Source: Tetraselmis striata (Eukaryota > Chlorophyta > Chlorodendrophyceae > Chlorodendrales > Chlorodendraceae). Taken from it: DNA of 64,000 bases. Under the pieces are notes generated by a model. The model saw only the letters and a list, made by a program, of their open reading frames with translations, was not told where the DNA came from and did not search any database. The DNA is taken from the NCBI GenBank assembly GCA_006384855.1, contig VCJN01002314.1:1-64000 (forward strand), written 5' to 3'. A program made the position numbers and the translations under genes. Shown here piece by piece: positions 21,885 to 54,059 of the stretch (position 1 is the stretch's first letter; each line of letters begins with the position of its first letter).

Positions 21885-23946
21885 CAAGCGAAGCTCAAGG
21901 CAACGGCCAGCAGCGCGGCACGCAGTGAGGCGCAGATCCGCAGCCTGCAGGAGCGGCTGGCGGAGGTGGGGCGCGCCGAGGCTCGCCGTGCCGCGTCGGA
22001 GGCAGAGACGGAGGATAAGGCGTCCGCGCGTCTGCGGACCGAGCTGCGGCGGAGGGAGACGGAGCTGCGCAATACGCGCCAGGAGCTGGCGGCGGCGCAC
22101 GAGGCGCTGGAGATGGCGGCGCAGGTGAGACCGGACCGCTCGCTCCATTGTCCGACTGTCATTCACCCATCTTGTCTCAGTTGCCGGTGTCCTCCCTGTT
22201 GCTGCAGCATCGCGCCATGGTGATGCTCTCCTTGGATGCCGTCGCTCTTCACACGTGAGCATTATCGAAATAAACATCGTATCAAGCTTGAGCAGATGCC
22301 GAACCAATTCTCTCATTCCCGCTCTCTCGGGAGGCTTTAACTAGTTGACACCCCTTTCACGCCGTTACTACCAGTGGCGACAACTGCCCTACAGCAGCCG
22401 AAACACGGGTATGTGGTTTTGGAGCAAGTATCGATTAACTTGCACTTATCATGGCAGCAAGCCACTCATACGCACTGCAACTCCAATCATTCCCCCGCTC
22501 CAACTTGCGATGCCCACCTGGAGTGAAGCCGGGCACTGTCCAGACCCCCCCCCCCCCCCCCCCCCTTCGCCCTTAATGATCGCACGCCTTCCCCAGAGCC
22601 CCAAACATGGCCCACAGGGGCCGGTTGTCAGGCGTTGAAAGTGCATGCCAGCACGCAGTCATGACATGCCCCTGCCGGCGTGGCACTTGAACGCAGACAT
22701 GCACTGCGGTATCTGACCCCCCCCCTCCCCCCCCCCCCCTTGGCTGTCCTGCCCTCTGTATGATAGAGCGCGGAGGCCGCCGCCATCTCAAAAGTCGCAT
22801 CAGCTCCGGCGTGCCGATGAGCGCGCGGCGCGGCAAGTCAAGTTTGCGGAGGACCTCATCGCCGCCATGCGCGTGGCGTCGCGCCTGGCGCTGCGCGCCT
22901 CCGCCTCGACGCCGTCCGCCGCGGAAACGGTGGGCGCGGCAGCGGCGGCGCCGTCGCCCGCCTCGCCCTTAGGCGAGGGTGAGGGGGAGCTGGGCGCGGA
23001 GCTGTCGGAGATCGCGGGCCTGGTGGGCGCGGTGGGCATCACGCCGGGTGAGGTGCAGCAGCTGCTGGGCATCGACCGCAGCGGCGGCCGGCGGCGTGGC
23101 GCCGGGACGGCGCAGGCGCAGCGGCCGGTGCCGCAGGCGCAGAGCCTGGCCAAGGTGTCGGACACACTGCGGCAGCTGGAGGCCGCGCTGGAGGGTGAGC
23201 GGCCATCTTGCCATCCCCCTCCTTTCTACCCCGCAATGAAATACCCATCGCACCTGGCCTGCTGAAGATTCTGCGGGGATGCAATAGTTTCGGATCATGG
23301 CAGCTGAGATACTCTTATTTTTTCGGAGCACATCCTGTCAATGCTTCAAAAACATAGAACACACAAACAATAGCCAATGGGGGGGGGGGGATTCTACAGT
23401 CTTTTATGCTGGCTGCTATTGGTGGCGACAAAACGAAGCAGGGGGCAAGGGGTGAATTCAGCCTGGCTCCAGCGCTGCCCACAGCGGTTGAAGGCCCGCA
23501 ATACCTGGCCGCCTTGCAGGGATGCGGCGGAGGATGACCCGGACCCCAACCGCGGGGCGCGCCCCCCGGCGGCCGGCTGGGACGCCAAGCCGGTCTCCGC
23601 GCTGCTGGAGGGGCTGGAGGCGGAGCTGCGCCACGCGGAGGGCGAGCTGTCCGCGGCGGCGGAGGCGCAGCGCTCCGCTGCCGGCGCCGCCCCGGCGAGG
23701 CGGCCGCGCGAGCGGCGGGTGGAGGTGGACCGCGGCGCGGTGGGCGAGGTGGTGGCCGGCCTGCGCCCCGCGTGGCGCGGTGGTTCCGGCGCGGAGGAGG
23801 AGGAGGAGGAGGAGCTGTCGCTCCAGTACTCCTCCGGTGGGCACTCCTCCGCCGGCAGCTGGGCGGCCACGGCCCGGGAGATGGGGCACGACGTTTACGC
23901 CGCCACCCGGGATGCGCGCGCAAGGCTGGCGCAGCGCAACGCCTGA
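21885..23946 (+). pseudogene. Truncated duplicate of the coiled-coil gene
   Basis: The three last exons are present at 21885-22124, 22795-23194 and 23520-23946, with the same splice sites as copy A. All exons upstream are absent because the duplication begins in the preceding intron. At the start of the last exon one base is missing compared with copy A (ggatgcggcgg against ggatggcggc). Splicing at the conserved acceptor therefore shifts the frame. The remaining frame from 23531 still reads DAAEDDPDPNRG through to RARLAQRNA and TGA. Many differences between copies are synonymous or conservative, so part of the sequence may have stayed coding for a time. Confidence 0.7.
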
Positions 23947-24072
23947 CAACGACCCCCACTGAAATATGCAAACGCACGCAAACTACCAGCAAGTAGTATA
24001 TAAAGCCGCGTGGTGCCTGCGCACAGTCTCGCAGCCAGACACGTATTGTACTTATTTCCTTCGCATAGAACC

Positions 24073-24354
24073 ATGCCAGGACAGTTTCTCAACAATGCGC
24101 CCGGGTCTGCATATCAGCTAGTGCCGTCTCCGTGGAGGAGCGGCTCCTTGTGCCCACCCAGGTGGCGCGCCTTCATGCCCTACAGTCATCTGCCGTGCTA
24201 CCCGGCAGTCCGCCTGGCGGCACTCCGCTTTCAAGCTATCTCCCTCTCGCTTTCGGCGTGTCTTGTATGGTCCCGCTGGGAAGGGGTACCCGGATACTCT
24301 GTAAACCGCTGCGCCATGTTGCCATCCAGCAGAGAATGTCATAAAAGCATATAG
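24073..24354 (+). CDS. Small frame behind a TATA box, duplicate of 18026-18151
   Basis: 93 codons beginning MPGQFLNNAPGSAYQLVPS. TATATAAAG lies at 23997-24005. Compared with copy A the frame is intact where copy A has two TGA codons. No motif is recognised. The conservation may also reflect conserved untranslated DNA. Confidence 0.3.
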   Translation: MPGQFLNNAPGSAYQLVPSPWRSGSLCPPRWRAFMPYSHLPCYPAVRLAALRFQAISLSLSACLVWSRWEGVPGYSVNRCAMLPSSRECHKSI

Positions 24355-25219
24355 TCATGCCTAGATGGGCCTCCACCAGCTGGCCGGCAGCCAGTGCTTT
24401 AGCCTCTCACTGCGCTAGTCGCGGCACAGCACGAGCTCCGTGAGGGTCCATACACGCCCCCAAACTCACAATTGACAGAAGACTCCAGTACACAGCTGAG
24501 GCGGGATTGGATGAGGTGGCATAGTGCTGCTGGGCTAGTTGTTACGCTCGCGGATGAGGGCGCTGAGCGGCGCATTGCGCCTCCCGTGAGAACGCCAGCA
24601 CCGGCAGGACCGCCATTGTGTGGGCACGGCTGTACAGCAGCTTGTTGCGGGAAATCTCAGGCATGCAGGCATCGACGTATAATGCTGTGCTGCGGAGTGC
24701 TGCTCCTGTCAAAAAATATCCAGTCCGCGGAGAGGCTGGGTCAGTTGCGGATTGTTGTCGCGGCAAGGCATGAACTGCAACCACTTCCAAGTGCAGGCCA
24801 GGATGGCGTGAGGCACTGCGCAGCACCGCACGGCATCACGAAACCATAACCCTCTGCTCTGCGCATCGAATGCCGTGAATAACAAATGGGTATCAAGTTA
24901 GTAGGTTACAACAATGTACTGGGACGTAGGTGACAATGGGGCGCGCTGATGTACAGGATAACACATTGTTTTCTAATTTGCGTACCCCTAATTACCATAT
25001 TCTGCATTCTGCTGTCTATCTATGTTATAGTACATGGGCTAGCTGCCAAAGGCGATCGGGAAATCACCCGAAAAGGCATTAGGAAACGCCCAGTGCGGCA
25101 ACTGCGAGGTGACTTCTGCTGTCTATGATCTACTATCGACTATAATACTGGGCAAGGGCCTCAAGAATCCGAGCCCTGTTGTACGGCTATCGGCTCCATC
25201 ACGAGAGACATGCGTTTCA

Positions 25220-26005
25220 TCAAACCCGGATGTCGCCGTGAAGAAGCACATATCTGACGTTGTCGTTGCGGTAATCGCGGTGCGCCTTGCGCGTCTGGAT
25301 GTCGTGACGATAGCGGCCCACCGCCGACTCGGCGTTGTGGCTCCTCATCTGCTTGGGGAGATATACTCGTCGCCCCCTTGTGGCAGCGGCGGTGCCGACC
25401 TCGGCGTCCGGGTCCTCGTTTTCGCTGGGCAACGGGATGCCTGTATAGCTCTGGACGTGCCTGATGCTGATTCTCGCCTTAGCTGTATCCGGGTGGACGA
25501 GGTACGGTAGCGATAAGCGCCCGCGGCGAGAGTCTCCGCTGGCGCTTCTGCTATCGTCGTCGCTGCCTCTCTTAGTCAGCGGTGAAGGCTGCTGGGCCGC
25601 CCGTTGCTGTTGAGGCGGGTACACGACGTCGGGCAGATTCGACTGAGCTTGGGCTTTGTTCTCCACGGCTGAGGGGATAATGATCGGCTGCCGGGACGAC
25701 CTCGACTGGCGCGGCGAAGGCTGGTGTTCGCAGCCGCCTGTGGTCGTGCTGCAGTGCTCCGAGCGTCGGTGGCACGCCTCCGGCTTATGCACTGCCGTCC
25801 TCAGCAGCACCCCGGGGTGGCCGCTGCTGCAGTTGAGGGACGGCCGTTCCAGAAACATGGGGGACATGGTTTCGGCAGCCGTCGTTGAGACGTCGGGCTG
25901 TCGGAAGTAGATTGCTGCTTGTCCTTGGTGGACGGCGAGCACGGCGAGCTCTCGTCGTACGGGAGACGGGTCGTCTGTACGAGTGCGTCGTGCTGCTGCG
26001 CGCAC
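25220..26005 (-). CDS. Unknown protein, duplicated gene copy B
   Basis: A 261-codon open frame ending DIRV with TGA, paralogous to 19137-19901 over its whole length with small in-frame insertions (for example around SDDDSRSASGDSRRG). It has the same features: basic start, disordered Ser/Pro/Gln-rich middle, basic conserved C-terminus. Like copy A it opens with GTG rather than ATG just after a Cys/Ala/Arg-rich stretch, so the true start is upstream. Function unknown. Confidence 0.5.
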   Translation of the reverse strand: MRAAARRTRTDDPSPVRRELAVLAVHQGQAAIYFRQPDVSTTAAETMSPMFLERPSLNCSSGHPGVLLRTAVHKPEACHRRSEHCSTTTGGCEHQPSPRQSRSSRQPIIIPSAVENKAQAQSNLPDVVYPPQQQRAAQQPSPLTKRGSDDDSRSASGDSRRGRLSLPYLVHPDTAKARISIRHVQSYTGIPLPSENEDPDAEVGTAAATRGRRVYLPKQMRSHNAESAVGRYRHDIQTRKAHRDYRNDNVRYVLLHGDIRV

Positions 26006-26373
26006 GCCACACTGTTACCGCCCGAGCGTCGTTTGCTGATAGCTGCGTCCGTGTAAAGTACTGGTACGTTTTTAATGCTTTACTTACTTCCCTGTACGAG
26101 TACCAGCAGTGCGTGATATCGCCTTTTGCTGCTAGCTCATGTAAGTACTCTAAAGTACCAGCAGTATCAAGCATGTACCTTTCCTTTATATTCCTTTTCT
26201 GGCGGTACTGCGTCCACCTCGCAACTGCTTGATGACTATAACGGAGCGTCGCCCAGCCAGGGCTTTCCGTGACTGGATTGCTGATGCCCAAACGCCGTCG
26301 TCTCAAAGACGCTGCAAGGGTTTCACTGGTGCCAGTCCTGTCCCGGGGGCGGGAAAAAAAACCTCGCAACTGC

Positions 26374-32457: not shown

Positions 32458-33519
32458 TCATGCCGCCACTTGGCGTGGCAGCCTGGCTGGTTGACCGCCC
32501 CTGGGGATCATCCAGCCAAAGAGGTGCCATTCCGTCGGACACGGCAACACGGTTGGGTCGATGTAGTCGAGCACCACGTTGGACTCCATCGCCCAGCTGC
32601 CGAAGTACAGGATCTTCTGCATTGTCACGCCGATCACGTACGCGGTTGTAGTGGCCCCCTTTCGGAGGGAGTGGGACGTCCACGCGAACCTAGCGGGGGG
32701 CGCCTCTTGCACTGCTGTCAACACCAGTTGCAACCAGCTGGTGAGGGTGCCCGCCGTCCATTTGGCCTGCCCCTCGCGCTGGCTGATGGCCCATCGCGCC
32801 GCTGACACGCGGCCGCCGGCGAACACCTCACGGGCGGCATCAAAGTAGTGCAGCAGCTCCGCGATGTCGGCATGCGCTGACGCTGGCAACTGACACAACA
32901 ACTTCTTGCTTGCATCCGCGCCACGCCGGCCTTTCCGGTCATGGTATAGGAGGATTCCGCCGTCCGGGCCGACGGTGAGGTCGCTCGTACGACACTCCAC
33001 CCCCGCTCCTCCGCGGCAGAAAAACAGACAAAGCACGACGACTGCCAGGCTGGCGCGGAACAGCTCCACGCGCACCACGGTACTTGGGTCCGTGCCCCAA
33101 GTAAGTCCCAGCTCCAGCCGTAGGGCTTTCGCGAGGGGCGGGGCTTTCAGCACCACACGCGCGGGCAATGGGGCCCGCATCAGCTCGGGGTGTAGCGTCA
33201 CATGCGACGCCGCAAGGCCCTTGCGGATCCCGCTCACCAGATCGCCCGGAGCCATCGGCTCCCAGCCGTGGTCCTTGAAGAAGTTGTTGACGGCCGACAG
33301 GTAGGGCTGCAAGTTGGAGGCCTTGATCGTCCCCAGGTTGCCCAACCACGTGACGTACCGTGCCATATAGAGGGGATCCATAAACTCCTTTTCCATACTT
33401 TAGGGGATGTCCGACAGGAGGTAGCGCCAAGAAAATGGGCGCGCAACACCCTGCAGTTTGTGCAGTTGCTGCGGGCGTTCCCGGTTGCGGCCTTCGCCAG
33501 TCGGGTTTGCCAACGTCAT
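32458..33519 (-). pseudogene. Tyrosine recombinase (DIRS-like), nearly complete, one in-frame TAA
   Basis: From ATG at 33519 the frame reads MTLANPTGEG ..., has a TAA at 33400-33402, and continues from MEKEFMDPLYMARYVTWLGN to TGA at 32458 (312 codons after the stop). The N-terminal helical domain contains TIKASNLQPYLSAVNNFF. The catalytic domain shows an Arg box (FFCRGGAGVECRTSDL), a Lys in YHDRKGRRG, then TSHSLRKGATTTAY (HxxR), GSW, and LDYID with the nucleophile Tyr. All catalytic residues are present. Changing one base (TAA from CAA) would account for the stop. No RT or gag lies beside it, so it is a fragment of a DIRS-like element, or alternatively a Crypton-type gene. Confidence 0.75.
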
Positions 33520-34402: not shown

Positions 34403-34410
34403 CAAAACGC
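34403..34410. repeat. Left target-site duplication caaaacgc
   Basis: Identical to 43304-43311 at the other end of the element; 8 bp is within the range for MULE-type transposons. Confidence 0.7.
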
Positions 34411-34742
34411 GGTACATGGTACATTTTTGAGTCAAAACGGTCCTACTCCTGGACTCCAAAATGTGCCCCCCACGTGATCGCTTAGGCTGGGATATGTACC
34501 CATTCTTCGGGCACATTTCAAGTTCAATGCAATACTATACGAGAGTACTAAAAATGGCACATCGGCGTGTCCTCTTCACGCCCTCAGTCGCGTGAAGTAC
34601 TATCCGCCTCACCTAGGTGGCGGCGCTACTTCGCGCCATTTTGCGCGCCCCAGTGGCGCACCTTGTTGGAGATTCCACTCCTCGCCCCACTCCACACCAT
34701 TGCACTGCACTTCACTCTCCTTGACGTCCTTCTGTAGCCGCC

Positions 34743-37198
34743 ATGGCCGACCCTTCCTCTGCCCCGCAGGCTAGCGAAGCCTTTCGCCAGGCCCAAGAGC
34801 AAATTTAGCCTTGCATCTCCTTCCTATACAGTTTGCCCCTTCAACCGGATCACATAGACAAGCTTTTCAACGAGGGCGTGAATGCCGTTGCTGGACGGCT
34901 GCTACATGGGCTCGCCCCTTCTCCGTGTCTGCCTTCGGAGGTTTGTAAGCCTTGGTGCAGCGCGCCCTCATGCGCTACGGGTCCGGAACGTGCCGGTTCC
35001 GGCCCGCGGAGCCACCAAAGCAAGCGCCCGGCCCCCTCGCCAAGCCCCTGCCAGCAGGGGAGCGCTTCTGCGCAAGGGGTGGAAAAGCGTTTGAGATTCG
35101 ACTGGAGGAAGGTTGGCGACGCAACCTTTCCCACGAGGCAAGCCGCAGTGCAGGAGTTGATATGGATGATGGACGAATGGAAGGCCCAAGCAATATGTCA
35201 GCAAGGGCGCGTATGTGAGTGCTCCTCACGCGTGTTGTGTCTGAAGGGGGGCATCTTGCACCTGAGTCTCGGCATGTTCCACGAGTGTATCCACTAACAA
35301 TGGTTGGGTCTCGGCAGGTGTATAACTGCGCCTCCCACCTTAATTGCCCCGCGCATCTCCGCATCTATCGTGATCCGGTGAGCGAGCGCTGGGAGATGCA
35401 GCGCGACCACCGCCTCCACACGTTGCATGAGGTTGACGTCGTCGTGGACGGGAAAGTTCGCATTCGTCCTCAGCGAGTTAAAGCCCAGATGAAGGAGCAC
35501 GTCGATGACGCGCCAATGCGACGTGTGGAGAAACTGGGGAAGGACGACAGGAAAATTGCGGACGCAAGGGCGTGGCGACTGGCGTTTAAATCCTGGAAAA
35601 AAGCCTCACTCGCGCAGAGAAGGGGTCCCGGGCCTACGAGTCTATCGCCGACCTCAGAGATTGGGCTCGTCGAAACGAGATGCCACCTCTGCACTCTGCT
35701 GACAGCGACGCGGCGTTGGAAGACGACGATTTGGTCGTCCTACAGTTCAACGACGAGGCCAAGGCAGTGATGTTCCATACGATGGGCATGTTTAGGACCT
35801 TGCGGCTGGCCGAGACGGAAAGTCTCCCACTCTGCCTCGTCACTGACGGCACGCACAAGATTCACTACGGCAAGTGGGTCCTTTCGACCCTTGGCACCCA
35901 CTCAATCGAGTATGACATGGAGAAGTACAACCTCGTTCACAGCTTCCGCCCAATCTCCTTCTGCTTTGCGCAAGAGGAGGATGGGGCAGCGATGACCCTC
36001 TTGTTCAAGACGACGATGGATACGCACAAGAAGATGTATGGCAGTTCGCCCAACATGCGCGGGCTCTTGAGCGACAAAGGGGGCGGCTTTCGCGTCGCCA
36101 AAAGAAATGTTTTCCCTACTGCGAGTGTGCGCCCTCCCCACCCATGTGCATCTCTTGCAAACTATCGGTTGTTGGATACCTGTCCTTCGCAAGTTCCAGT
36201 TCAAGAAGGGCACGATGAGCGTCAACGGTCGACGTGTCCAAGTATGCCGAGGGGAGCACGAGTGGAAGGTGTGCGAAGAGTGTGTGAAGGTGATCCGCTC
36301 TTGCCGCTCCGAGGAACAAGCACTACAGGCAGTCGGAACCAAGTCGTTGCAAGTGATTGCGAGGTCAGCCCCCGGCCGGTGGGTCGAGGACAATTATTTT
36401 GGCGCCAACCTCGACTGGTGGTCGAGAGCCTCCACCTTCGTGGGAGTTCCCGCCAAGAATAATAGCATGGAGGGGTGGCACAATGCTGCCAAGAACGCCT
36501 TTCCTAAGGGATTGCGCAACCCCACCGACTCCCTCATGGAGAAGCACTTCCCCAAGTGGCTGGAGAACGAGACGTACAAGCGCAGCAGCAAGCATATCAA
36601 CCCTGCCTTCGGCATGGAGCTCTCGACGGACGTCCACTTCGCGGTTGACTATCTGCAGGCACCGGGAAGCCACGTGGAGGTCGACGGGGCGTTGTACCTC
36701 GTCGGCGACCCCTTCAAGATCGGCACTCGCAGCGTCACTACACCAGCGGTGCTGAATTACCGCAATAGCTTGGCCGGAAATGTGGGGATCAGACCGCGAT
36801 GGACGATTCAGGCGATTGAGCGAGACTTCCTCTTCCTGAATCGAGTGACCCTTCACAACGGCCGGCCAAGCAAGGCCGCCAAGATGCGACGGCGAGCGCT
36901 TTTGGCTGTACGGCATATGCTCCCACAAGCTTTTGTGGGGTGCCCTACGAGACCCTGCGGAGAAGATGCGGCTCGAGAGGCTGGCAGGCGACATGAGCGA
37001 CCGTTCAGGCAGGCATCGGCCTCGCAGTCCTATTGCGGCCCTAGTGAGACAGCCCCAAGACGGCGGGAACGCGTCGCAACGCCGTCACGGAAACGCCATG
37101 CCGCAGCACGGGAATCTCCGGGCGGCAACGGGTACGGGGGCTCCATCTCCTTCCGCCTCCCCGGCCGCGGGCGGCAGCGGACGCAGGGCGAGGCGTAA
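34743..37198 (+). pseudogene. MULE-like transposase with Cys/His zinc finger
   Basis: ATG at 34743 in strong context (gccgccatggcc). Exon 1 runs to 35210, intron 35211-35317 (GTATGT ... TCGGCAG), exon 2 from 35318. A TAG at 34806-34808 replaces a CAG found in the relative at 50981. The zinc finger is CASHLNC ... RDHRLH (C-x5-C ... H-x2-H), as in WRKY/FLYWCH-type fingers of MULEs. After a frameshift near 35600 comes the catalytic region: CLVTDGTHKIHYGKW (first Asp), MRGLLSDKGGGF (second Asp). After a second shift near 36110, THVHLLQTIG and PAKNNSMEGWHNAAK (Glu). The C-terminus is Arg-rich. Order and spacing fit a DDE transposase. Confidence 0.7.
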
Positions 37199-37317
37199 AC
37201 CAAGGACAAGTGCCCGCAGATCGTAATAGCCGTGGCTTAAGTCAACGGCGTAATTTTGTAATGACATTCCGCACTCCGACGTGCGACGTCTCTGCAAGTA
37301 AAATGTGTTCCAAGCGG

Positions 37318-37838
37318 TATTGCCCAGTGAGCTATTGCAGCGAAGCTAACGCTGCATGAATCCCATGTCACGGACCATACACGAACCCACTTTGCTTGCT
37401 GATGCGCGTTGGCGCCGCGCTGCCCCCGCCGCCGCGCGTTGGCGCCGCGCTGCCCCGGCCGCCGCGCGTTGGCGCCGCGCTGCCCCGGCCGCCGCGCGTT
37501 GGCGCCGCGCTGCCCCGGCCGCCGGGCGTTGGCGCCGCGCTGCCCCGGCCGCCGCGCGTTGGCGCCGCGCTGCCCCGGCCGCCGGGCGTTGGCGCCGCGC
37601 TGCCCCGGCCGCCGCGCGTTGGCGCCGCGCTGCCCTGGCCGCGCTATCAAAGGAAATGCGGTTTGTGAAATCGACGGACAGGATTCGATTCAACTCTCAT
37701 CTGCGGTCGAAAATGATTTGTTATGATCGTTGGTAATGATAATGATTAATGAGGTATTGCCAAGTCAGCTATTGTAGCGAAGCTAACGCTGCATTAATCC
37801 CCTGTCACGGACCATACACGAACCCATGTGGCTTGCCG
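37318..37838. repeat. Direct repeat pair flanking a GC-rich array
   Basis: The stretch from attgcccagtgagctattgc to tacacgaacccac (37318-37393) recurs at 37753-37828, roughly 85-90 percent alike. Between them sit the 30-bp array and an AT-rich spacer. The repeated unit encodes the C-terminal end of the methyltransferase-like frame on the minus strand, so the 3' end of that gene seems to have been duplicated. Confidence 0.6.
37406..37643. repeat. Tandem array of a 30-bp GC-rich unit, eight copies
   Basis: The unit contains gcgttggcgccgcgctgccc plus cggccgccgc. Copies start about every 30 bp from 37407 to 37617, nearly identical, with one-base variants (cgg against cgc). It is open in several frames on both strands because the period is a multiple of three, so the long ORFs here are not genes. 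It sits between the convergent 3' ends of the transposase and the methyltransferase-like frame. Confidence 0.9.
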
Positions 37839-38623
37839 AGGTGCTCCGAGAGATGCGCCGTTAAAGTCGCTGAATCTCTTCCGACGACCAATAACAATGC
37901 GCGTCTGTTGGTGTCGGGGTTCCTTGGGTGCTTTGACGCGATGATAAGTACATGACCCGCTGTCAACAAGCTGTCGAGGCAGTCCATTCGCGGGAGTGGC
38001 CTTTGCGTCAAGTAGGTGATTTCCGCCTTGGAGGCCGCCAGCAGCGGTAGGAGCAAATCCAGGTGAGTGAACCAAGGCGACGTGACAACGACAAAGGGCT
38101 CCTTGCACATGGCAGCGGCCTAGTCGTGCGTTTCCGGCGACAAGGCGTCCGCGACGAAGTGGGGCACGCGAGACAGGTTGACGTCGCTCAATAACACCCT
38201 CCCGGCCCTCCCGAAGAGAGCGTGTGCCGTGCCAGCGAAGCCGCTGCAGGGATCCCACACGCATACCTGTCGCCGGGTCTTTACGCAGGCCGTCAAGCAG
38301 TGATACTCCCACGGAGACGTGTAGATGCAGGGTGGGTTGTTGCCCAACATCTTGCGGTAAAGAGCGTGCCCGCGTTTCAGGGTGCGCTCCGACCACGCGC
38401 GAAGCATCCCCGTGTCAAGCGGACTGCGTACGTCGACAGCGTACCACCAATCTCCGGAAAAGTCCGGCGCAACAACCTGTAAGACAAGGTTCCACCACGC
38501 ACGGGAGTCGGGTATGGAAAAGCGTCTCTTCGTTTCAAGAGCTAGGAGCGACGGTACACGGGTTTGTACGCGAGAGATTCGGGCGTTCACCTGCCCCCGC
38601 CGCGGAGATGCGGGTAATCCCAC
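37805..38623 (-). pseudogene. SAM-dependent (DNA) methyltransferase-like protein with internal TAG
   Basis: The minus-strand frame shows motif I CVWDPCSGFAGTAHALFG (SAM-binding loop) and LLSDVN (acidic residue after strand 2). VADALSPETHD follows, then TAG at 38120-38122, then in the same frame VVVTSPWFTHLDLLLPLLAA. The TSPWF box stands where amino-methyltransferases have their catalytic DPPY/TSPP motif. The frame ends HGFVYGP with TGA. A CAG-to-TAG change would explain the stop. The start is uncertain (only GTG at 38623). An amino-methyltransferase acting on DNA, or on RNA, is the likeliest class; the substrate is unknown. Confidence 0.55.
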
Positions 38624-38779
38624 CCCTCTCGCTTAATTCTCTCCACCCTCCGCATCTTGCTCGTCAGTCTTGCCTGCGGTGGCCTCATCCACCGCTGCTT
38701 TGACGTCCGCGAGGACGTCCTCGTCGTCCCCAATGTGGGCCTCCGGGTTCCAAAGCCGCATCTCTTTCGCCGCCACCAT

Positions 38780-39240
38780 GGTTCACGCCGTCTCGTACTT
38801 GCGACGGCACGGCGGGCCTTGTCCTCGTGATCGACTTAAGGCAGGAAGGCAGACATGCCGGGGACGTGATATGGCAAAATTTGCCAATCCGGTCCCGGCA
38901 TCATCGCGCATGTGTTGGGGTGCAGGCTCCGGAAGATGCGGAAGGAAGGGGTGACACCCGCGAGGTCCTTGCATCTCGGGCATCCTGTTGCGAACGCATG
39001 GTTGACGCCTCCCTTGGGCGGGCTGGCGTGGACATCTTGTGCATGCAAGAGGAAGGCAAGGCTAGGGCGCGAGCATGTCGGAGCGTCCTCGTTTCCTGGC
39101 AGACCGTGCGGTAGCGGTCGTCCGCGACGCCGAGGGGGACGAGAGATTTGCTATGCGTCAGGCGCCCAGTGCAGAGATTCCGGGCCTCCCGGAGCTCGGC
39201 AAGGGTCTCCGGCCGATTCTGCTCCAGCCACGGCACGACG
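38780..39240 (-). pseudogene. Remnant frames between ORF2 and the methyltransferase-like gene
   Basis: The minus-strand frame at about 38836-39048 reads GVNHAFATGCPRCKDLAGVT then FRIFRSLHPNTCAMMPGPDW, with a C-x2-C pair. It could be an N-terminal domain of the methyltransferase-like protein or a separate small ORF. Competing frames overlap, so boundaries are not reliable. Confidence 0.3.
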
Positions 39241-39327
39241 CCAAGCGGTGACGCTGCTACGACTTCCCACTGGGCGGAGATGCAGGGAGAGACAGGCGCG
39301 AGGGTGAGATTCCACCCCGACTAGCGT

Positions 39328-42300
39328 CTAAAACATAATGGCACTGTGGAAGGCGAAGGGGGGGGGGCTCACGATTCCATGTGCAGCCCACTTCAAGGCG
39401 TCGACAATTGTCACATCTCGTCCCCTCCGGACGGCATTGAGTGGCGCGCAGCAATTGAGAAAGGTGATGAGGAGCAGCCCCCCCGCCACGCCGTCGACAT
39501 GGGCAGGATCCGAGCCGCAGTCCGGGTCTGCCATGACGAGGGCCTTGTGCCGGGCAATGTAAACACGGGGCGAGATTCGCAGCTGACGGTGAGCTTCTTG
39601 GGACATACTCGTTGCAAATCCCCCGCAGCTCGTTGTACACAAGCCGGTGGTCTTCGGAGGCCAGAAAGGCCCGCATGTTCATCGTGCTCTCGTCCCCGCC
39701 CCTCCCCTGCGGTATGATGTCATCGGGTCTTGCGGATCGTGAGGTATTAGAGGTCGTTGGTAGACAAGGACGAAAGCACGAAACGGGTGGGAAAGGGGGC
39801 GGGTGTCACCACTCATGTCGAGATGCAGCGGCTTCTTGCCGCCTCCAATGAAGGTCCACGCCTTCTCCTCACCCATGGAACCGGCAAGACGTACCTCGAC
39901 GAGCCTGTCCCCCAGGTCGGCGACGCGGTCGCAAAGGTCTTGGGAGCCAAAAAACGAGCGCACGCGTGTTTGGAAGAAGTCTTGGTTGCCCATGAGAGTG
40001 GCGACGGTGGGGTCGGTGATTGGCGGAGATTCTTCGACAAGGCGAGGCGCGACAAGTCGCTCAGCGAGGGGCGTAGGTGCATGCGGCCCAGGAAGGGGAG
40101 GGAGAGGAGCATACCGCTGGAAGCCGAGCTTGGGTGCACTTAGGGTGCTGCCTGTCCCGGGCCGACGAAAGACTATCGGCGCGAGCGTAGGAGACCGAGC
40201 TGTCGGCGCATGCAACGGTGCGGGCTTCGCGTCCCGAGATGAGGGCTTCTTAGGCGGAGATGCGGATCGGGGGGGCGGAGATGGGGCACCGCCACGGGAA
40301 GATGTGGCCCTGCGACTCCCGCCCGCGGCACCCGAAGGCGCCTGACGGCTTGACGTGGCTTCGCGTTTCGGCTTAGGGGCTTGGAAGGGATCGTCGTCCT
40401 CCAGCTCTTTTGCCATCTTTAAAGGAGGACTCGGCCCGCGCTTCTTGGAATGCTTCCTTCGCAGCTTCATGTGCGACAAGGTGCTCTTGCCTCCCGTGCG
40501 CAACGCACCGTGCGGGCGCTTTGTCGCACTCGAAGGCTCATGCTCACTCGGCGGCTTGGCAGTCTCCAAGCGACCAAGCATCTTCGGGGGTGGGGGCGGA
40601 GCTGCTCGAAGCTCCAACAAACATGCTGCAGCGCCGTTTTGGGAGCCATCTCCACCGGACCCCGGTGGCGGTGGTTGAGATGCGGGCTTGGAGGACCCGC
40701 CGGCTTGACGCGACGCCGCTACGACCTGGTAGTAGCGGTCGTCGACTAAGAGGGTGGGGGTAGAGAGCCGGCGGCTATGCAGGGCTGGCAGGTGTTGGTG
40801 GACTTCGTGAAGCGTTGGTTCTTGATGTGTTGAATGCCGCGCCGCATCTCGTTGTCGTTGTGTCATTCGCGCACGTTGCAAATCGAGTAGCCACAGTGTT
40901 TCACAGTTTTGCTCTTGCACTCCACGAAGAGGACGCACTCCACGGCATGTTGCCAAGATGCCTCCGGCCAGGCTCCTTGGCTGCCATTGGAGTCCTGGAG
41001 TGCGCGCTTGCGGTCGGCGTACGCGTGCTCGTTGATAGAGTCAGGGAGACATAGACAGAGTCAGGGAGCGCACGCACCCAGAGCTTCAGAACTCCACTTG
41101 CAGCGGTATGCGAGAACACATTGGTCGGCACCATGTCGAGAGCCGACGCAATATTGCTCGCGGCTGTCTCGGAGAACCCGAAGTGCCCCACAGTTTGAGC
41201 CACGTTCCCCTCCGTGAAACCGGCAGAATTTTGGGTAAAAGGGAAGAACTCGATGGGTATCTCGTGAGCTTGCCCTGGAGATGCGGGTGAAAAAGACCTT
41301 CGACCGGTCCACGCCGTTGAAGAAGGGATTCTCGGAGATGTGCGCACACTCGAAGAAGGGGGCCCACACCTTGGCCATTGTGGCGACATCGTCGTAGCCA
41401 ACGAGCAGTTCGGGGAGTTCGGTCACACCGCTTTGGCTTGGAACATGCATCTTCACGAAGAACTTCCACAAGAAGAACGTGGCGATGGCTCTTGCATCAA
41501 GCACGCATCTCGCCCAGCAGGTGTTGGCGTCTCTTTGTTGCGTGACGACCCCGTGGAAGAAACCGTGGCGAGGGGGTTGGGGCTTTCACCCACTCAGGGA
41601 GGCAGGCCTAGCAATATCTAGTCATACAGCTTGCCAACCGGGGTAGGGGCTGGTGCGGTTGAGCATCTTGGGACGCAGGGTTCGTAGATGAAGACAAGGG
41701 CGACCAAGGCGCCATCTCGCGGCAGCCAGACACCGCATGCGAAGTGCCCCGAAGTCCTCACGATGTCCAGCCAGGCGACGAGCTTGCCCTTTTCGGGAAC
41801 GGGGTATGTCTTCCTGTAGAATCTGGGGAAGATGGTCTCCAACGTCTTCGCGACCTCTAGGCAACTGTGACGCTCGTGATAGACCGACAGGGGCACCCGG
41901 AGCTCCATACCTTCTGGGCAAGGGAAGAGGTCCGCCATGGCGTGGAGGCAGGGCAAGAACAACCAGCTCGAGTTGGGCAACTTGTTGACCACGTTGCCGA
42001 TGACTCTTGTCAAGAGCACGTGATGCTCCTTGTAGGAGATGGGATGCCCGTCCTGTGGTTCGGGTTAGGTGGCAAAGTGCTCAAGGAAGTCCTGCTCGTA
42101 GCAGTTCCACTCGCCGAGTTTTGGGTCGACAGGTGGCACTCCTTGTTCAAGTGGTGTCGAGGAGACGGTATATGTAGGGAAGGGCAGGAAGCGTGTGAGA
42201 ATCTTTGCCCTCACGCGCGAAGATGCGCACACAATTGAGGTTGTGATGGGAAGGGGCGAGGGGTTACCGTTTTGCTCCCACATCTGGCGCTTGTGGCGGG

Positions 42301-42929
42301 GCTCGTTTGCCCAAAAGCAAGCGGACCGCCCCCGACTGTATTGGGCCCCTCCTCCTCCTCCACCTCCTTCCCTTCCTCCTCCTCCTCCTGTGATTCTTGT
42401 CCGTGCTTTTCCTCACGGATCGTGACCAAGTGTTCACCTTGGCCGGCTTGAGACTGGTCGTCATCGGTCTGGGTGACTATAGATCCCTGAGATGCGCGAA
42501 GGCGAGGTGCGCTTAACGCAACCCACGGCGCCCTTATGAGAGATGCGAGCGAAGATGCGAGACCGCGTCCCGTTGGAGGCGCTCCTGGGAGAGGGTCCAA
42601 AGGTGGCACACCTTGAGGCTGGGGGTCAGGCTGAGGTTCGCGGCGAGGCGGCTGCGAATCTCCGGCCCGAGGCAATGGCGGTCCGCTTCCATGTTGCCCA
42701 CCGCTCAGTTGCATGGACCTCATGGGCTGAGTCGTGGGTATTGGCGCCTGCGACGCCCTCTTGCCCAAACGCAAGTGCATCTGCGGAGAATCTTGCGCGA
42801 TGGGGGTCACTAGCAGTGTGTCGAGAGCCCTCGTTGGTTCAAAACCAAGTGCCCCCGCCACATGACTTTGCAAGCGGGCAAAATGTGCGTTTTGCTATGC
42901 CAGGACGGTTTGCCATGCTATTGTGCACC
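39328..42929 (-). pseudogene. ORF2 of the transposon: long protein of unknown function
   Basis: The start is fixed by comparison: MANRPGIAKRT at 42929 matches MANRPRRAKRT at 55005 in the relative. A Pro/Gln/Ser-rich segment follows. Next are folded-looking parts conserved in both copies: VRAKILTRFLPFPTYTVSST (42240) and EGNVAQTVGHFGFSETAASN then IASALDMVPTNVFSHTA (41200). Then come HAVECVLFVECKSKTVKHCG and NEMRRGIQHIKNQRFTKSTN (about 40900). A second disordered segment, rich in Pro, Lys and Ser, covers 39679-40700, and the end reads NAVRRGRDVTIVDALKWAAH to TAG at 39328. Several shifts and stops (for example VRE-TGA where the relative has TGG) break it. No known domain is recognised. Confidence 0.5.
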
Positions 42930-43303
42930 GAGAAGCGTGAAGATGCCTCAAAGAATAGAAGCGCGAGGGAGCTTGCGAGTGGTAGATGAGTGAAAAGCAC
43001 AGTGGCGGTGTAGGATTCGAGGCTAGAGAAAACGGTTAGCATGGAAGGGTAGCGATGCATCTCGTCAAAGGGCGGTGGACAGGCGTGTAGTACATAGTGC
43101 AGGTTCACTGAATAGCACCTCGTACAGTGTTGGCAAGAAGAGGAACGTGTCAAAGCCCAGTTTCACAGTACATTCGTATAGTATTAGGCGTAACTCAAAT
43201 TTGCACCCCCCAAAAGGGGTACATTTTTGAGTTAAGGGGGGGGGGGGGTAATTTTGAGTCTAGAAATGTGCCCATTTTGACTCAATAATCGCCCTTTTTC
43301 CCT

Positions 43304-44340
43304 CAAAACGCATTGCCAATGAGATCGGCATACAACAAAGGGATTTTTTGCGGCAAAAAACCCCAACCCTGGACGCGAGAAAAGTGCCGCTCCACATGAA
43401 TGCGGAGATTGGACTGCAAACTACCCTCTTCTAATTCATCAGAGGGTAGACTGGTCTACACCGCGAAACTTACGGGGAGGGGCTATAACATCTGCGCCCC
43501 GAGCTTTCATACGGGCGGCAAGATAATCAAAGCCCTTGTCCGTTGGAAAGATATCTCCTTTCTGCACCACGTCAAGAAAACCACTATGCTCGCATATCTC
43601 TATGTCTCATATTCTCGTAATCGGACGGCTGTGTAATTAAGAACCGTGGGCGGGCGGGCGGGCGGGCAGGTGGATTATAGTACTTAGTAATACATGCCAG
43701 TAGATAAGCGCTTTAGTCATGCACCTATAGGCCCGATCCGCAGTAGACGGGTACCCGTACGGCAATAAAGCTCACCGCCGAAAAATCGACGACGCTTCGC
43801 TGGATAATCAAAATTTAATTCAAACTTAATCAATAGGAACCGAAAGCAACTTCAAGTCAAACAAATGCAGATGCAAACAAAATCAAAATAAAAACAAATG
43901 CAAATCGAAATCAAAATCAAACAAATGCAGCAAAATCAAAGTCAAACAAGCGCAACAAAATCAAAATCAAACAAAAGCAAGTCAAACAAATGCAAAAAAA
44001 AAAGATACGTAGATGAATGGGCCATGATATTTAGCCATGTCACCACGGTTCTGGCCATCCGCCATACGATGTTATGGCCCAAGTGCTGATCAAATTTAGC
44101 GACAGGCATGTGCGCATCTTCACCAGCGTCAGCAGGAAGGCATCTTGTGAACTATTTGTCTTGTCTGTATGACCACAACTATGCAGCCTGGCGGTGCCGT
44201 CACGCTCAGCGTGCATTCGTTGAATGCTTTGTTTGCCTGACCAGGTAGGAATTAAGCCGCTCGCATTGGCCATTCGAATTAAGCAGCTCATAAACGCTTA
44301 CCGGCAAATCAACAGTGGCTAGATCAGTGAGTTCCTGAAC
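43304..44340. other. Flank of the transposon; small frame and A-rich tract
   Basis: 43304-43311 is the right target duplication. An ATG-started frame of 78 codons (43403-43636, MRRLDCKLPSSNSSEGRLVY) has codon use unlike its neighbours and no motif. A GGGC run is at 43645-43667. An A-rich tract at 43855-44000 repeats words such as aaatcaaaatcaaacaaatg, resembling a degenerate poly(A) or tail repeat. No other gene seen. Confidence 0.4.
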
Positions 44341-45871: not shown

Positions 45872-47798
45872 CTAGAAGGGAACGCGGAATATAGTCACGG
45901 CCCTGTGAGGCCTGCCGATCATACCTCGCCCGCCCCGCCGCCCCGGCCGGAACAAACCGGCGCGCGGCGCCACCGTGAGCTCCTCCACTTCCATCTCGGT
46001 GAGTGCCCGGTGCCACGCCTTGCCCCCCCATCGCGGCGCGACGACGGTCGCCGCTGCGCCACTCCGCTGCAGTTTCTGTACGAGGTCGGGTAGCAGGGGC
46101 CACGGTGCGTTGCACCAGTTGCTTTCGCGGCGCCAGTCCGCATCCGGCAGGTGCAACGAGTCCACCGCCTCGCACGTAGGGTCCAACCACGCCACGTTGT
46201 AGCGGGGGACTAGGGTGTTGCGGGCGGACGCGAAGCGGTCGATGGAGTGAGGGCCGAACCGGCTCTCCAGTTCCGCGAACAGGAGGGGGTCGAGTTGCCA
46301 ATCGTCGCTATCGAGGTGCCGGCTTAGACTGTCCGCCCGTATATTCGTTGCCGAGCGAATGTACCGTGCGCGCAGGTGGATGCCGTGCGAGTCCAGCAAG
46401 CACCATAGTCGTCGCAGCTCGGCCATCATCTCGGGAGAGCGTGAGGTTACGCCCGACAGAACGTGATATACCGCCGGGCTATCCTCGTGCAAGTAAGAGG
46501 ACGTTGGGCCCGGCGAGGTGGGGGAGGAAGCTTTCCACCGCAAGTCGAACCGCTTTGAGCTCCTTCCATGTGATGTGCTGTCGCTCGTCCGTCGAGTTCT
46601 AGAATCCCCGCGCCTCCAGCCTGCCGTTCAACACCCCGCCCCACCCGTAGCATGAGCTATCGGTGTGCAGATAAGCCGTCTCCACCGGAAAGTGGATGGG
46701 CTTGCCGTTGGACTGACTAGGCACCGATGTCCACCACTGCAGGTCGGGGCGAAGGTGTGGCGTCATCCGGACGCGCCCGCCCCACCGGTCGCCGACCACG
46801 GAGTTGAGCAGGAAGAATCTTGCGGCCGGGATTGCCAAAAAGAGGTACTGCGCCTGCCCTGCCACTGACTGCAACTCGCGCACCGGGAGCCACCTGCCCA
46901 CCTGGCGTTCCGCATGGCGCGGCCGATGAGCCGGGTGGCCTGCCGGAAGAGCCCGTCCAGCTTGTCTGCCGGTGCGTAGAACATGCCGGACGCTGAATCG
47001 ATGTCCACCCCTAGGTGCCTGCCGAATTGACGGGGCTCCCAGAAGCCCTTTGTGGGGTGCCGCTGCAGCCCCAAGGCATCGAGGAGGCTGGCGAGCCGTT
47101 GACGGAGGTGGAGCGCCTGCTCCATTGACGCCGAAAAGGAGGAAGTCGTCCACGTAGGGTAGGATGCGCGCTCCCCTCCACTTGGTCCGCCGGAGGTAGC
47201 GCTTGCTTCGTGTGAGCTGTGTAGACGATGAGGGGGGCTCGGGCTCGGGTTTCCGCGGGTGGGTGATGAATACTTGGGTGGGCGTGACGCAGTAATAGGG
47301 CGAGAGGCTCCAGCCCATTGGCAGATCCGCGAGCCTATAGGGCTGACCTCGGACGTCCACGGTGAAGTGTCGGTCCGCCTCTGCGATGCCTAGAGCATAG
47401 AAGCCGTCTTGGAGGTCGAAGGAGAACATGTAGTCTCCCTTTTTGGTGAGGTGGCGCACTCCTAGTAGGGTCTACATCTTGAGCCGCTTGCGCACACAAT
47501 AAGAGTTGAGCACTCGGAGGTCGATGATGCAGCGCCAGTGGTTGACGCCGGGCTTGGGCACTAAAAAGAGTCTTGACACCCACCTGCGGCAGGTGCCAAG
47601 CTCCCCCGCGCCGGACTCCACGAAGCGGGCAAGCTCGCCCTCGAGGAAGGTGAGCTGCGCTGGGGTAGCGTCCTGCATGCTGGTGACGTTGTGGAAGTTG
47701 GGTCGGGGGCGGTTGTGCTTGAAGGGGATCCGGACGCCCTCCTGGATCCACCGTAGGACTTGATCGCTCGCCCCGATGTCTTGCCATTGCCGCCGCAC
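45872..47798 (-). pseudogene. DIRS-like reverse transcriptase and RNase H
   Basis: The frame from 47798 has VSRLFLVPKPGVNHWRCIID (RT fingers). A TAG at about 47474 follows RKRLKM, and the same frame continues GDYMFSFDLQDGFYALGIAE, then LPMGWSLSPYYC. After an insertion rich in Pro/Ser comes the catalytic ILPYVDDFLLFG at about 47131-47165. In a shifted frame, ALGLQRHPTKGFWEPRQFGR is the connection region. RNase H follows: AYLHTDSSCYGWGGVLNGRL, a TAG at a position where related enzymes have Trp, DERQHITWKELKAVRLAVES, then DSPAVYHVLSG and IRSATNIRADSLSRHLDSDD. At least three lesions make this copy inactive. Confidence 0.7.
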
Positions 47799-50657: not shown

Positions 50658-51174
50658 GTACAGGGGCATTTTTTGAGTAGTTCTATTCCTAGACTCAAAA
50701 ATGTGCCCCCACGTGATCGCTTAGGCTGGGATATGTGCCCACTTTTCCGGCACGTTTCAGGTGCAGTGCAATACTATACGAGAGTACTAAAATGGCAAAT
50801 CAACGTGTCCTCTTCGCGCCCTCAGTCGTGTAAAGTACTATCCGCCTCGCGTAGGTAGCGGCGGTATTTCGCGCCATTTTGCGCGCCGCAGTAGCCCACC
50901 ATGTTGGAGATTTTACTCCTCGTCCCACTCCACACCACTGCATTGCACTCCACTCTCCTTGACGTCTTTCTGTAGCCGTCATGGCCGACCCTTCCTCTGC
51001 CCCGCAGGCTAGCGAAGCCTTTCGCCATGCCCAACAGCAAATTCAGCCTTACATCTCCTTCCTAGCTAGTTTGCCCCGGGCTCGGGCCTACGAGTCTATC
51101 GCCGACCTTTGAGATTTGGTTCGTCGCAACGAGATGCTACCCGTAAACTCTGCTGACAGTGACGCGGCGTTGGG

Positions 51175-52250
51175 GCGAGATGTCGGCGCATGCGGCGGTG
51201 CTGGCTTCGCGTCCCGAGATGGGGGCTTCTCAGGCGGAGATGCGGATCGGCGGGGGGGCGGAGATGGGGCACCGCCACGGGAAGATGTGGCCATGCGACT
51301 TCCACTAACGGCACCCGAAGGCGCCTGACGGCTTGACGTGGCTTCGCGTTTCGGCTTAGGCGCATGGAAGGGGTCGTCGTCCTCGAACTCTTTTGCCATC
51401 TTTAAAGGAGGACTCGGCCCGCGCTTCTTGGAATGCTTCCCTACGCAGCTTCATGGGCGACAAGGTGCTCTCGCCTCCCGTGCTCAACGCACCGTGCGGG
51501 CGCTTTGTCGCACTCGAAGGCTCATGCTCACTCGGCGGCTTGGCAGTCTCCGAGGGACGAAGCCTGCTCGGGGGAGGGGGCGGAGCTGCTCGAAGCTCCA
51601 ACAAACATGCTGCAGCGCCGTTTTGGGAGCCATCTCCGCCGGACCCCGATTGCGGTAGTTGAGATGCGGGCTTGGAGGACCCGCCGGCCTGACGCGGCGC
51701 CGCTACGACCTAGTAGTAGCGGTCGTCGACCAAGACGGTGGGGGTAGAGAGCCGGCTATGCATGGCTGGCAGGTGTTGGTGGACTTCGTGAAGCGTTGGT
51801 TCTTGATGTGTTGAATGCCGCGCCGCATCTCGTTGTCGTTGTGCCATTCGCGCACGCTGCGAATCGAGTAGCCACAGTGTTTCACAGTTTTGCTCTCGCA
51901 CTCCACGAAGAGAACGGACTCCGCGGCATGTTGTCAAGATGCCTCCGGCCAGGCTCCTTGGCTGCCAATGGAAGTCTTGGAGTGCGCGCTTGCGGTCGGC
52001 GTACGCGTGCTCGTTGACAGAGTCACGGAGCGCACGCACCCAGAGCTTCCGAACTCCATTTGCAGCAGTGTGTGAGAGCACTTTGGTCGGCACCATGTCG
52101 AGAGCCGACGCAATATTGCTCGCGGCTGTCTTGGAGAAGCCAATGTGCCTCACAGTTTGCGCCACGTTGCCCCCCATGAAGCAAGCAGACTTTGTGGTAA
52201 AAGGGAAGAACTCGATGGGGAATCTCATGAGCATCGTGGGCCGGTCTGTG
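51175..52250 (-). pseudogene. ORF2 middle part, relative copy
   Basis: Carries IEFFPFTTKSACFMGGNVAQ, IASALDMVPTKVLSHTAANG, VLFVECESKTVKHCGYSI and NEMRRGIQHIKNQRFTKSTN. A one-base insertion near 51970 and a TGA at a Trp position of the other copy break it. At other sites it is intact where the other copy is broken, which helps define the true frame. Confidence 0.5.
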
Positions 52251-52368
52251 CAATCTGTGGGCAATCGTGACTGTGCAGCCTTCCGGAGGCGGAGAAAGCT
52301 GATCTTGTGGATGAAGATCCATGCCTCCTTGCACACCTGCGGGATGCCAGTCGACGTTCATTGATTAC

Positions 52369-53030
52369 TACAGCGCTGCACCACAAATTGCTGCCTTTAG
52401 GCAGGCTATAACGGCCTAATAGATGGCTGCCAACCTTTCAGTATGCGGATTTATATGACAAAAAAGTAATTTAATTGCGCATATGCTTTACAATACTATA
52501 CATATTGCAGGTCAATACCGCTAATACCCGATTTTTGCTGGCGGCACGCCGCAGATTGCTGCCGCGTTGCACCGCAGATGCTGCCTTTAGGTATGCTTTG
52601 GCTGCCTAGACGGCTGCAAACCATTTAGTATGCGGGGTGGCATGGCATGGAAGGGATATGAACACGCACCGGCTTGACGAAACTATAGAGATTGCAAGGC
52701 AGTACCGCAAATACCTGATATTTGCTGGCGGCACGCCGTAGATTGCTGCAGCGCTGCACCGCAGATGCTGCCTTTAGGAATGCTTTATTTGCCTAGATGG
52801 CTGCAAACCATTTAGTATGCGGGGTTGCATGGCATAGAAGGGATATAAACACGCACCGGCTTGACGATACTATACAGATTGCAAGGCAGTACCGCAAATA
52901 CATGTTATTTGCTGGCGGCACGCCGTAGATTGCTGCAGCGCTGCACCGCAGATGCTGCCTTTAGGCATGCTTTATTTGCCTAGATGGCTGCAAACCATTT
53001 AGTATGCGGATTTTTTTGACATAGAAAATA
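52369..53030. repeat. Tandem repeat, period about 187 bp, three and a half units
   Basis: Units begin cgctgcaccgcagatgctgc at about 52371 (degenerate), 52564, 52751 and 52937. Each continues with cctttaggcatgcttt, atggctgcaaaccatttagt and ttgctggcggcacgccg. The inner units are about 95 percent alike; the first is more diverged. Confidence 0.8.
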
Positions 53031-53340
53031 ACACAACGCTGCGATTGATGGCGCCACAAGGTGAGTGGGCGTAGCGTGCATATATGTGTATAGCGACTAT
53101 GGTCCGAGATATACGGGTTGGCGACAATCTGGCTAGAATTAACTTAGAGGGCAGACGGCGGTATTACCGCAGTCGGGCGACATGATGGTCGCGCTAGAGT
53201 CCCCATCTCCAGCGTTGCCGGCGTTAGTGGCCGGTCTACAGTCTGTCGGTCAAAGTAATCGCCGGCAGGACCGCATGGCGAGGCAAGTGGCTGGGAGCTG
53301 GAAAATAATCGCCGGAAACAAGGTCACAAGTTGGTTCGCG

Positions 53341-54000
53341 CTACGGGCGGCATGCTACCCACCCACCCATGGAACCCACCCGGACGGAGCTGCCGTTCTC
53401 AGTAAACCACCACTTCTCCTGCGCAGGCCGGTTGTCGCCGCCCTCTACGTTGGTGGTATCATATTCGTTTTCGGCGGTGACATTGCGCGACTTGATCTCG
53501 CCAGGCTTGAAGCACCGGTCGACCCTCTTAGCCAGCTCGTTCCACGATGCCTTATGGCCGTTGCCGTGGATGGCACGCCGAGTCAAAGCCACCGCGGTCG
53601 CGAAGTCAAGCCCATTACCGGAGGGTGGTGAGGCGGGGGTGCTCGGCGAGTTCGGAGGCGGAGGCGAGGGAGTGTTATGCCCGTTCGAATGGTGGCCACA
53701 GCGAAGGAGCTTGGTGATGCAGCAGTGGGACTTGCAGCAAACCAGGGGGCGAGGGGTGCCATCGGGAGAGGCGGGCTCGGCCTCCGCGAGGATCAAGCGG
53801 GGGGACGTGCGCGCGATTACGCGTGGGCGGGTCTTGGGTGGGGTATGTGTCCTTCCTCGGTCGAGGCTTCTGCGGCTTCCGAGCGCGAGTGTTGAAGGCC
53901 GTATTCGACGGCTTGGCGAGACTTGCGTCGGGCGCGCTGCATGCGATGGAGTCGGAGGCAACCGCGGCCATAGGGGCAGTGAGACTTCAATGGGACACAT
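53341..54000 (-). CDS. Unknown 219-codon frame inside the insert
   Basis: Open minus-strand frame. The N-terminal half is Pro/Arg/Ser-rich. The C-terminal half looks folded: NGLDFATAVALTRRAIHGNG then HKASWNELAKRVDRCFKPGE and EKWWFTENGSSVRVGSMGGW. No domain recognised. It may be captured host sequence or a further transposon gene; the start codon was not verified. Confidence 0.3.
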   Translation of the reverse strand: MCPIEVSLPLWPRLPPTPSHAARPTQVSPSRRIRPSTLALGSRRSLDRGRTHTPPKTRPRVIARTSPRLILAEAEPASPDGTPRPLVCCKSHCCITKLLRCGHHSNGHNTPSPPPPNSPSTPASPPSGNGLDFATAVALTRRAIHGNGHKASWNELAKRVDRCFKPGEIKSRNVTAENEYDTTNVEGGDNRPAQEKWWFTENGSSVRVGSMGGWVACRP

Positions 54001-54059
54001 GGTGTTGGGAGGGGGGGGGGAAGGTTTTCTGTGCTCCAGGAGACATGCATGCGTAGTCT

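Follow-up and report, generated by a model that had tools for sequence, protein, structure and literature searches.

What could a DNA transposon gain from a gene that resembles a methyltransferase? The question is raised by an element of Tetraselmis striata that occupies positions 34411-43303 of contig VCJN01002314.1, within a stretch of 64,000 nt that was analysed as a whole and is called the window here. A sequence-only reading of the window had described a transposon of the Mutator-like element (MULE) type with a methyltransferase (MTase)-like gene and a separate, unrecognised long ORF2, and had proposed that it may modify its own DNA or the methylation state of the host to control transposition or escape silencing. 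The element proves to be a decayed copy of a DNA transposon of the MULE type, and ORF2 and the MTase-like frame are predicted to form a single gene that converges on the transposase gene. With intermediate confidence we read this as a family of autonomous MULEs with a pair of convergent genes, whose second protein would bind or methylate the DNA of its own family via the word CGCATCT.

Anatomy of the element and its copies in the genome

The inverted ends and the 8-bp target site duplication given in the sequence-only reading were confirmed, caaaacgc being present exactly on both sides. Duplications were read from six full-length copies with both flanks: they had 8 bp in the window copy, 9 bp in C2869, C155 and C1620 (with the ends at the terminal GG; 11-12 bp counting neighbouring letters) and a partial 7 bp in C426, and C771 was uninformative as it sits in poly-G. 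The end words were recognisable in each of the copies inspected, and the left end of other copies matched the right end of the window copy with 76-78% identity over ~80-96 query bases (blastn). The element has the target site duplication of 8-11 bp and the terminal inverted repeats by which MULE/MuDR transposons are recognised.

A blastn search of the host genome (224 Mb, 2903 contigs) with the whole element gave at least 68 matches; the counts from the genome searches are lower bounds. The recurrence of the element is beyond chance. As to the host, a nuclear rbcS match agrees with a green alga or plant but is no more specific. Copies of the C155-like subfamily were mostly 98-99% identical to each other (95-97% for C1620 and C1824, 93-96% for C1975) and ~85% identical to the window copy, to which C771 and C2575 were nearer (89-92%). 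The order transposase-MTase-ORF2 was found in 24 of the 26 contigs among the matches listed for all three parts; the parts lay within 7.6 kb in 22 of these 24 and wider apart in C488 and C2208, and in C192 and C1638 the gene order does not fit. Several contigs stop near the 30-bp tandem repeat between both genes and, therefore, some copies seemingly lack the left half. Copies with the same ends and neither the MTase nor ORF2, which would have spoken against the sequence-only reading, did not emerge among the matches listed, and the idea that both genes stem from a nested element with ends of its own was rejected because order and ends are kept across copies.

Self-comparison of the window revealed a second copy, in which most of the transposase and the MTase are missing and no target duplication was detectable. 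Tandem repeats with a unit of ~190 bp lie at 52363-53031, inside this deleted copy.

The transposase

The transposase gene of open copies has two exons, one GT-AG intron and 811 codons (predicted splicing). Exon 1 encodes the catalytic words TDGTHK and SDKGGG; an N-terminal Cys/His cluster in this exon and a SWIM-like CDC...CSH in exon 2 of intact copies were read by eye. The gene was uninterrupted in three of the six loci in which both junctions were found; in the other 15 of 21 loci a start or junction was missing from the available stretch. No Pfam match was obtained for this transposase. It resembles, however, the transposase of a second family in the same genome, B (44.5% over 128 codons), and therefore the family of the window element, called A, was placed in MULE/MuDR. 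The transposase of B matched PF10551 with an E-value of 2.9e-4 and 21.6 bits, below the curated cut-off of 27.6; its zinc-finger-type matches in Pfam were confined to AFT (E 0.061). In the search of the translations with hidden Markov models that had been suggested as a check, the MULE domain was recovered, below cut-off, in family B, and no MTase profile matched the domain of the second gene.

A second gene joining ORF2 and the methyltransferase-like frame

Contrary to the description of ORF2 as a separate unrecognised protein, it would form the N-terminus and the middle of the MTase protein and contain a protease-like region. The predicted gene has five exons, four GT-AG introns and 1590-1595 codons, its splicing being deduced from GT-AG frames. 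It was uninterrupted in 6 of the 21 loci tested, one of which (C426) has ATA in place of the start codon; three loci had a premature stop, and 12 had no exact junction or start word, these being older, truncated or cut by contig ends. The acidic stretch varied in length mostly by multiples of three among the loci with exon-1 junctions. In the window copy, the last exon carries an in-frame TAG (38120-38122) and has in addition suffered a small deletion and a frameshift of 1 bp. The word HVDG in exon 3 had hinted at a 2-oxoglutarate dioxygenase, a reading that was dropped since this word is missing in family B.

Selection was analysed with one subfamily pair, C426 and C771, in which exons 2 and 4 and the MTase exon of the second gene were covered besides the transposase. 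For the two transposase exons, the ratio of nonsynonymous to synonymous substitutions (dN/dS) was 0.31 and 0.185; ORF2 exons 2 and 4 had 0.36 and 0.39, and the MTase exon had 0.183, which is below the value of ORF2 exon 2 (p 0.024). Nonsynonymous changes were below the neutral expectation in five of five exons (transposase, p 8.1e-10 and 8.5e-11; ORF2, 1.4e-13 and 4.7e-4; MTase, 1.4e-8). By this measure, the constraint on the MTase domain equals that on the transposase. Pairs that included the decayed window copy gave higher values (0.33-0.70), and C1620, C1975 and C2575 gave 0.30-1.24, with few changes or broken frames. That the transposase and the MTase-like gene belong together, as the sequence-only reading had assumed, is borne out by the same ends and order in many copies, the like arrangement in the second family and purifying selection on both. 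A required second protein is supported in substance, on other grounds; the original argument, the presence of ORF2 in both window copies, fails because the second copy is a deletion remnant, whose retention of ORF2 says nothing about need.

Methyltransferase-like and protease-like regions

The C-terminal domain is probably a class I S-adenosylmethionine (SAM) methyltransferase. An alignment of eight rows from families A to D keeps D-P-x-x-G...T, a later D and SPWF; the D, G and T of the SAM motif, the second D and SPWF were invariant in 8/8 rows. SPWF is a candidate for catalytic motif IV, and the half of the domain in which it lies had no profile match. Hhalign aligned the domain with 23 YhdJ-type N6/N4 MTases at the SAM-binding motifs (probability 74.9, P 2.6e-5, score 41.6), the best of 100 column shuffles reaching 21.4 and the reversed alignment 10.8. 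With single proteins, YhdJ, Dam and HsdM scored 20.7-22.5 and PrmA 16.4, all aligned around motif I, and eight non-MTases scored 11.3-16.4. For Dam and HsdM of E. coli no relatives in viruses were confirmed, so YhdJ was the sole family profile used. Family A proteins gave chance-level matches in Pfam, NCBIfam and PHROGs (e.g. DUF6774, E 0.25), and the best hits among PDB sequences had E-values of 0.28-1.3, including the MTase 1f38 (E 0.88), aligned at motif I. Searches with peptide patterns confirmed no relatives of the domain in viral contigs and GTDB genomes; these sets contain no eukaryotes, and the searches do not show that relatives are rare.

In the ORF2 part, GH[FY]A, VAPVF[IL]YDS, Q and [ST]C are common to the four sequences compared, which come from families A, B and C. 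The series H-D-Q-C was invariant in 4/4 sequences of the three families, with a spacing of 21/50/6 in A and a distance of 8 from Q to C in B. CE-clan proteases, Ulp1 among them, have the same order, and the spacing in yeast Ulp1, 17/43/6, is close to that in family A. By this motif, the region resembles Ulp1-type cysteine proteases. Order and close spacing are common to the region and the Ulp1/C48-type (CE clan) proteases, from which it differs in having W or C rather than G after the C. At E 10, the region had no PDB match, and no Pfam match was found.

The word CGCATCT

Family A copies contain CGCATCT 18-21 times each, on both strands and in coding and noncoding parts. Words containing GCATCT were the top enriched 6-8-mers in 4/4 A copies, the sites not being independent across copies. 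In C155, 21 sites were seen and 1.42 expected (Poisson 8e-18; 7e-14 after Bonferroni correction over 8192 words). The longer word GAGATGCG/CGCATCTC was found 11 times in the element, five times in the second copy and a single time in the remaining 50.4 kb of the window; its reversed spelling was found in none of the three. Genome-wide, CGCATCTC occurs 14,486 times on both strands (~0.065 per kb) and the reversed word 8,759 times, and its density in A copies amounted to 1.27-1.55 per kb. A k-mer background of eight loci (0.37 words per kb) was set aside since these loci had been chosen for holding the word.

The excess is also seen when the encoded protein and the codon usage are fixed. In 1000 synonymous shuffles the coding sequence (CDS) of the ORF2-MTase gene had a mean of 2.58 and a maximum of 8 sites, compared with 12 observed, and the transposase CDS a mean of 0.85 and a maximum of 3, compared with 4; in either case 0/1000 shuffles were as high. 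The sites lie in all three frames, on both strands and in introns and exons, most of them being exonic. From C426 to C771, 15/21 sites are kept, the usual proportion being 44.5% (p 0.012).

Two satellite loci (L061 and L062) consist of tandem copies of a 592-595-bp unit. The unit joins element segments 4411-4676 and 3672-3995, and in L062 it contains CGCATCT five times. Only 0.85% of element windows have as many sites as segment 4411-4676, and at C22 ~6215-7410 the spacing of the word is the same as in the satellite. Many short MTase matches (residues ~114-232) resemble satellite units, of which the two loci named were read.

Other families with the domain

The MTase domain was found in at least three further groups of the host genome, B, C and D. 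In family B (e.g. C1447 and C423), the MTase is 40% identical to that of A and lies convergent to a MULE transposase; for ORF2 the identity is 26% across 589 aligned columns. The MTase of family C (C2453, C354, C2308 and others) is ~53% identical to that of B, and in C2453 and C2308 an ORF2 region lies on the same strand ~5 kb upstream. D (C1713) is a Ty3-type polyprotein of 1771 codons with reverse transcriptase, RNase H, integrase, PHD finger and a terminal MTase-like domain; the matches listed include seven rows with the 1771-codon frame and two with 1767 codons. An N-terminal match of the D polyprotein (L042 699-6014) to C5-DNA-methylase was just under the cut-off (E 1.8e-4). Within the ORF2 region of family B, C1447 ~21600-23550 (L041/L039) holds a 190-bp tandem repeat with ~10 copies.

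Features and neighbourhood in the window

Table 1 Coordinates in the window of the features of the MULE-type element and of its deleted second copy
Feature	Position	Strand	Remark
Target site duplication, left (caaaacgc)	34403-34410		exact 8-bp match to right copy
Left terminal inverted repeat, imperfect	34411-34476	+	extent read by eye
Transposase frames overall	34743-37226	+	broken in window copy
Transposase exon 1, decayed (frameshifts, one stop)	34743-36125	+	limits from open copies
Transposase intron remnant	36126-36160	+	acceptor AG of other copies is AA here
Transposase exon 2, C..H word, N-SMEGWH (catalytic E)	36161-37226	+	comparison with other copies
30-bp GC-rich tandem repeat between both genes	37404-37642		copy number variable
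Last exon of ORF2-MTase gene, SAM-methyltransferase-like domain (DPCSGFAGTAHAL, SD, TSPWF)	37805-38476	-	frame reading and relatives
Exon 4 of ORF2-MTase gene, CPRC pair	38591-39327	-	junctions from open copies
Exon 3 of ORF2-MTase gene	39373-39731	-	upper limit approximate
Exon 2 of ORF2-MTase gene, protease-like H-D-Q-C near its start, then CxxC and low-complexity stretch; broken here	39810-42171	-	upper limit approximate
Exon 1 of ORF2-MTase gene, start codon 42914-42916, acidic low-complexity N-terminus	42270-42916	-	lower limit approximate
Right terminal inverted repeat, imperfect	43238-43303	-	extent read by eye
Target site duplication, right (caaaacgc)	43304-43311		exact 8-bp match to left copy
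Dispersed word CGCATCT/AGATGCG, 18 sites	34411-43303	both	intergenic tandem repeat left out
Second window copy, internally deleted (ends, part of ORF2)	50680-55399	+	self-comparison of window

Beside the MULE lie DIRS-like remains (45875-47471, minus strand) with a reverse transcriptase frame (PF00078, E 0.0018) and a match to Dam adenine-methyltransferase (PF05869, E 4.6e-5, under the cut-off); the MTase domain of the MULE gave no alignment with this one Dam-like sequence (score 9.8). A long frame at 32461-33399 (minus strand) looks tyrosine-recombinase-like by eye and had no Pfam match. The window further contains a 4.1-kb direct repeat (15773-19909 and 21825-26013, 88.9% identity) and a 731-bp direct repeat (7440-8170 and 9978-10708, 99.7% identity).

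Discussion

The element shares with Mutator-like elements a transposase with the MULE domain (matched in family B), the target duplication of 8-11 bp and the inverted ends. A second gene in antisense is given for several MULE groups in Table 1 of PMC6446971, and the extra reading frames listed in that source are SET, OTU, FAR1, PMD and others, with no methyltransferase named. The present element differs from the MULEs described there in that its extra gene joins protease-like and MTase-like parts; a MULE with a protease-MTase gene was not found in the open PMC literature, and the predicted make-up of the second gene is one that we did not find described. Like the second gene of the VANDAL MULEs of Arabidopsis, VANC, which is thought to act on its own family via a short word (PMC10398659), the second gene may act on a word of its own family; unlike in VANDAL, the word lies in exons and introns, the protein has an enzyme-like domain, and a tandem array is seen only as a derived satellite. 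DNA methyltransferase genes are reported in mariners of algal viruses (PMC3627910), which by their description are set apart from our element as another superfamily with separate genes and other MTase families. SymbioLINE-Dnmt, SymbioDIRS-Dnmt3 and the MT domain of DIRS elements, as described in PMC5890265 and PMC3266345, are likewise DNA-modifying domains (DNA methyltransferase or Dam-like) in mobile elements, but in retroelements.

How might the second gene work? The protein of ~1,590 residues would begin with an acidic N-terminus, followed by a cysteine-protease-like region and CxxC pairs, and would end in a class I SAM methyltransferase. It would bind the DNA of its own family, probably through the dispersed CGCATCT, and the MTase domain would methylate that DNA, by which copies may be kept expressible or good substrates for transposition. 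The protease-like region may process the protein or strip a host mark such as SUMO. That an element modifies its own DNA was put forward as a hypothesis in the sequence-only reading, and CGCATCT makes this hypothesis more concrete. Going further, we tentatively consider a self-marking transposon, a version that we would not expect to hold: the MTase would recognise CGCATCT, built up at synonymous positions, in its own family alone, the 592-bp satellites, derived from the element where its sites are densest, would serve as reservoirs or decoys for the enzyme, and MULE-type and Ty3-type elements of one genome would both have acquired the same domain.

Several observations weigh against a second protein that methylates its own family. 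The window copy is dead. Neither the MTase nor the protease region had a sequence match in Pfam, NCBIfam, PHROGs or PDB; the profile match of the MTase covers only ~42-55 columns around the SAM motif, in one family, and the second half with TSPWF gave none (score 9.9), which a difference in motif order may explain. The word was chosen after the sequence had been seen, before testing. Its longer form CGCATCTC is not significant in the transposase CDS (one site; 88/1000 shuffles as high), and the word is absent from B and D (CGCATCTC checked) despite the same kind of domain; therefore, the link between word and MTase is not general. No footprint of CpG decay was found either: CpG transitions on the window branch amounted to 0.0246, compared with 0.0297 for other C/G, and the proposed escape from CpG methylation or silencing is left unsupported by the lack of an excess.

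Some of these points would also fit a SAM enzyme that acts on protein or RNA, e.g. on the transposase or on histones, CGCATCT being bound by another protein of the element or by a host factor. We regard this as rather unlikely. The best-matching family was that of the DNA N6/N4 MTases, only one family alignment having been compared, and the TSPWF box resembles the box found in DNA base MTases, which is of the SPP[YFW] type. In favour of this rival, the substrate is fixed by no database match, the domain occurs in B and D although the word does not, PrmA, a protein MTase, aligns weakly at motif I (score 16.4), and some MuDR and HarbingerS elements are reported to carry SET histone MTases (PMC12730594). 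Less probable still is anti-silencing without methylation, in which CGCATCT would be bound in the manner of VANC and the MTase-like domain would be a remnant that binds DNA or SAM. VANC proteins are described to bind short motifs special to their families (PMC10398659), and the word is indeed family-specific and concentrated in a derived tandem array, but the VANC motifs lie in noncoding tandem repeats and the CGCATCT sites are mostly exonic; furthermore, four families retain the SAM motif and TSPWF, and dN/dS in the MTase exon, at 0.183, is lower than in ORF2 exon 2, so that an activity is likely to have been preserved.

CGCATCT could also be a signal at the level of RNA or translation instead of a DNA target. 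In the ORF2-MTase gene, somewhat more sites are on the sense than on the antisense strand (11 vs 5; 8 vs 4 in the CDS), but their presence on both strands, in all three frames and in introns as well as exons makes us consider this improbable. We find it hardly credible that the second gene is a captured passenger, useless to the element. MULEs often capture host genes (PMC6446971) and decayed and deleted copies are numerous, but purifying selection acts on all five exons tested and the same gene pair recurs in a family that is 40% identical.

Transposons with DNA-modifying enzymes are known, and what the element gains from them is mostly unsettled. The occurrence of the domain in unrelated element classes of one genome suggests repeated recruitment. 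In the family described here, an enzyme-like gene, the element and a candidate target word come together, with many near-identical copies, and since they co-occur in one family, self-marking by a transposon becomes directly testable.

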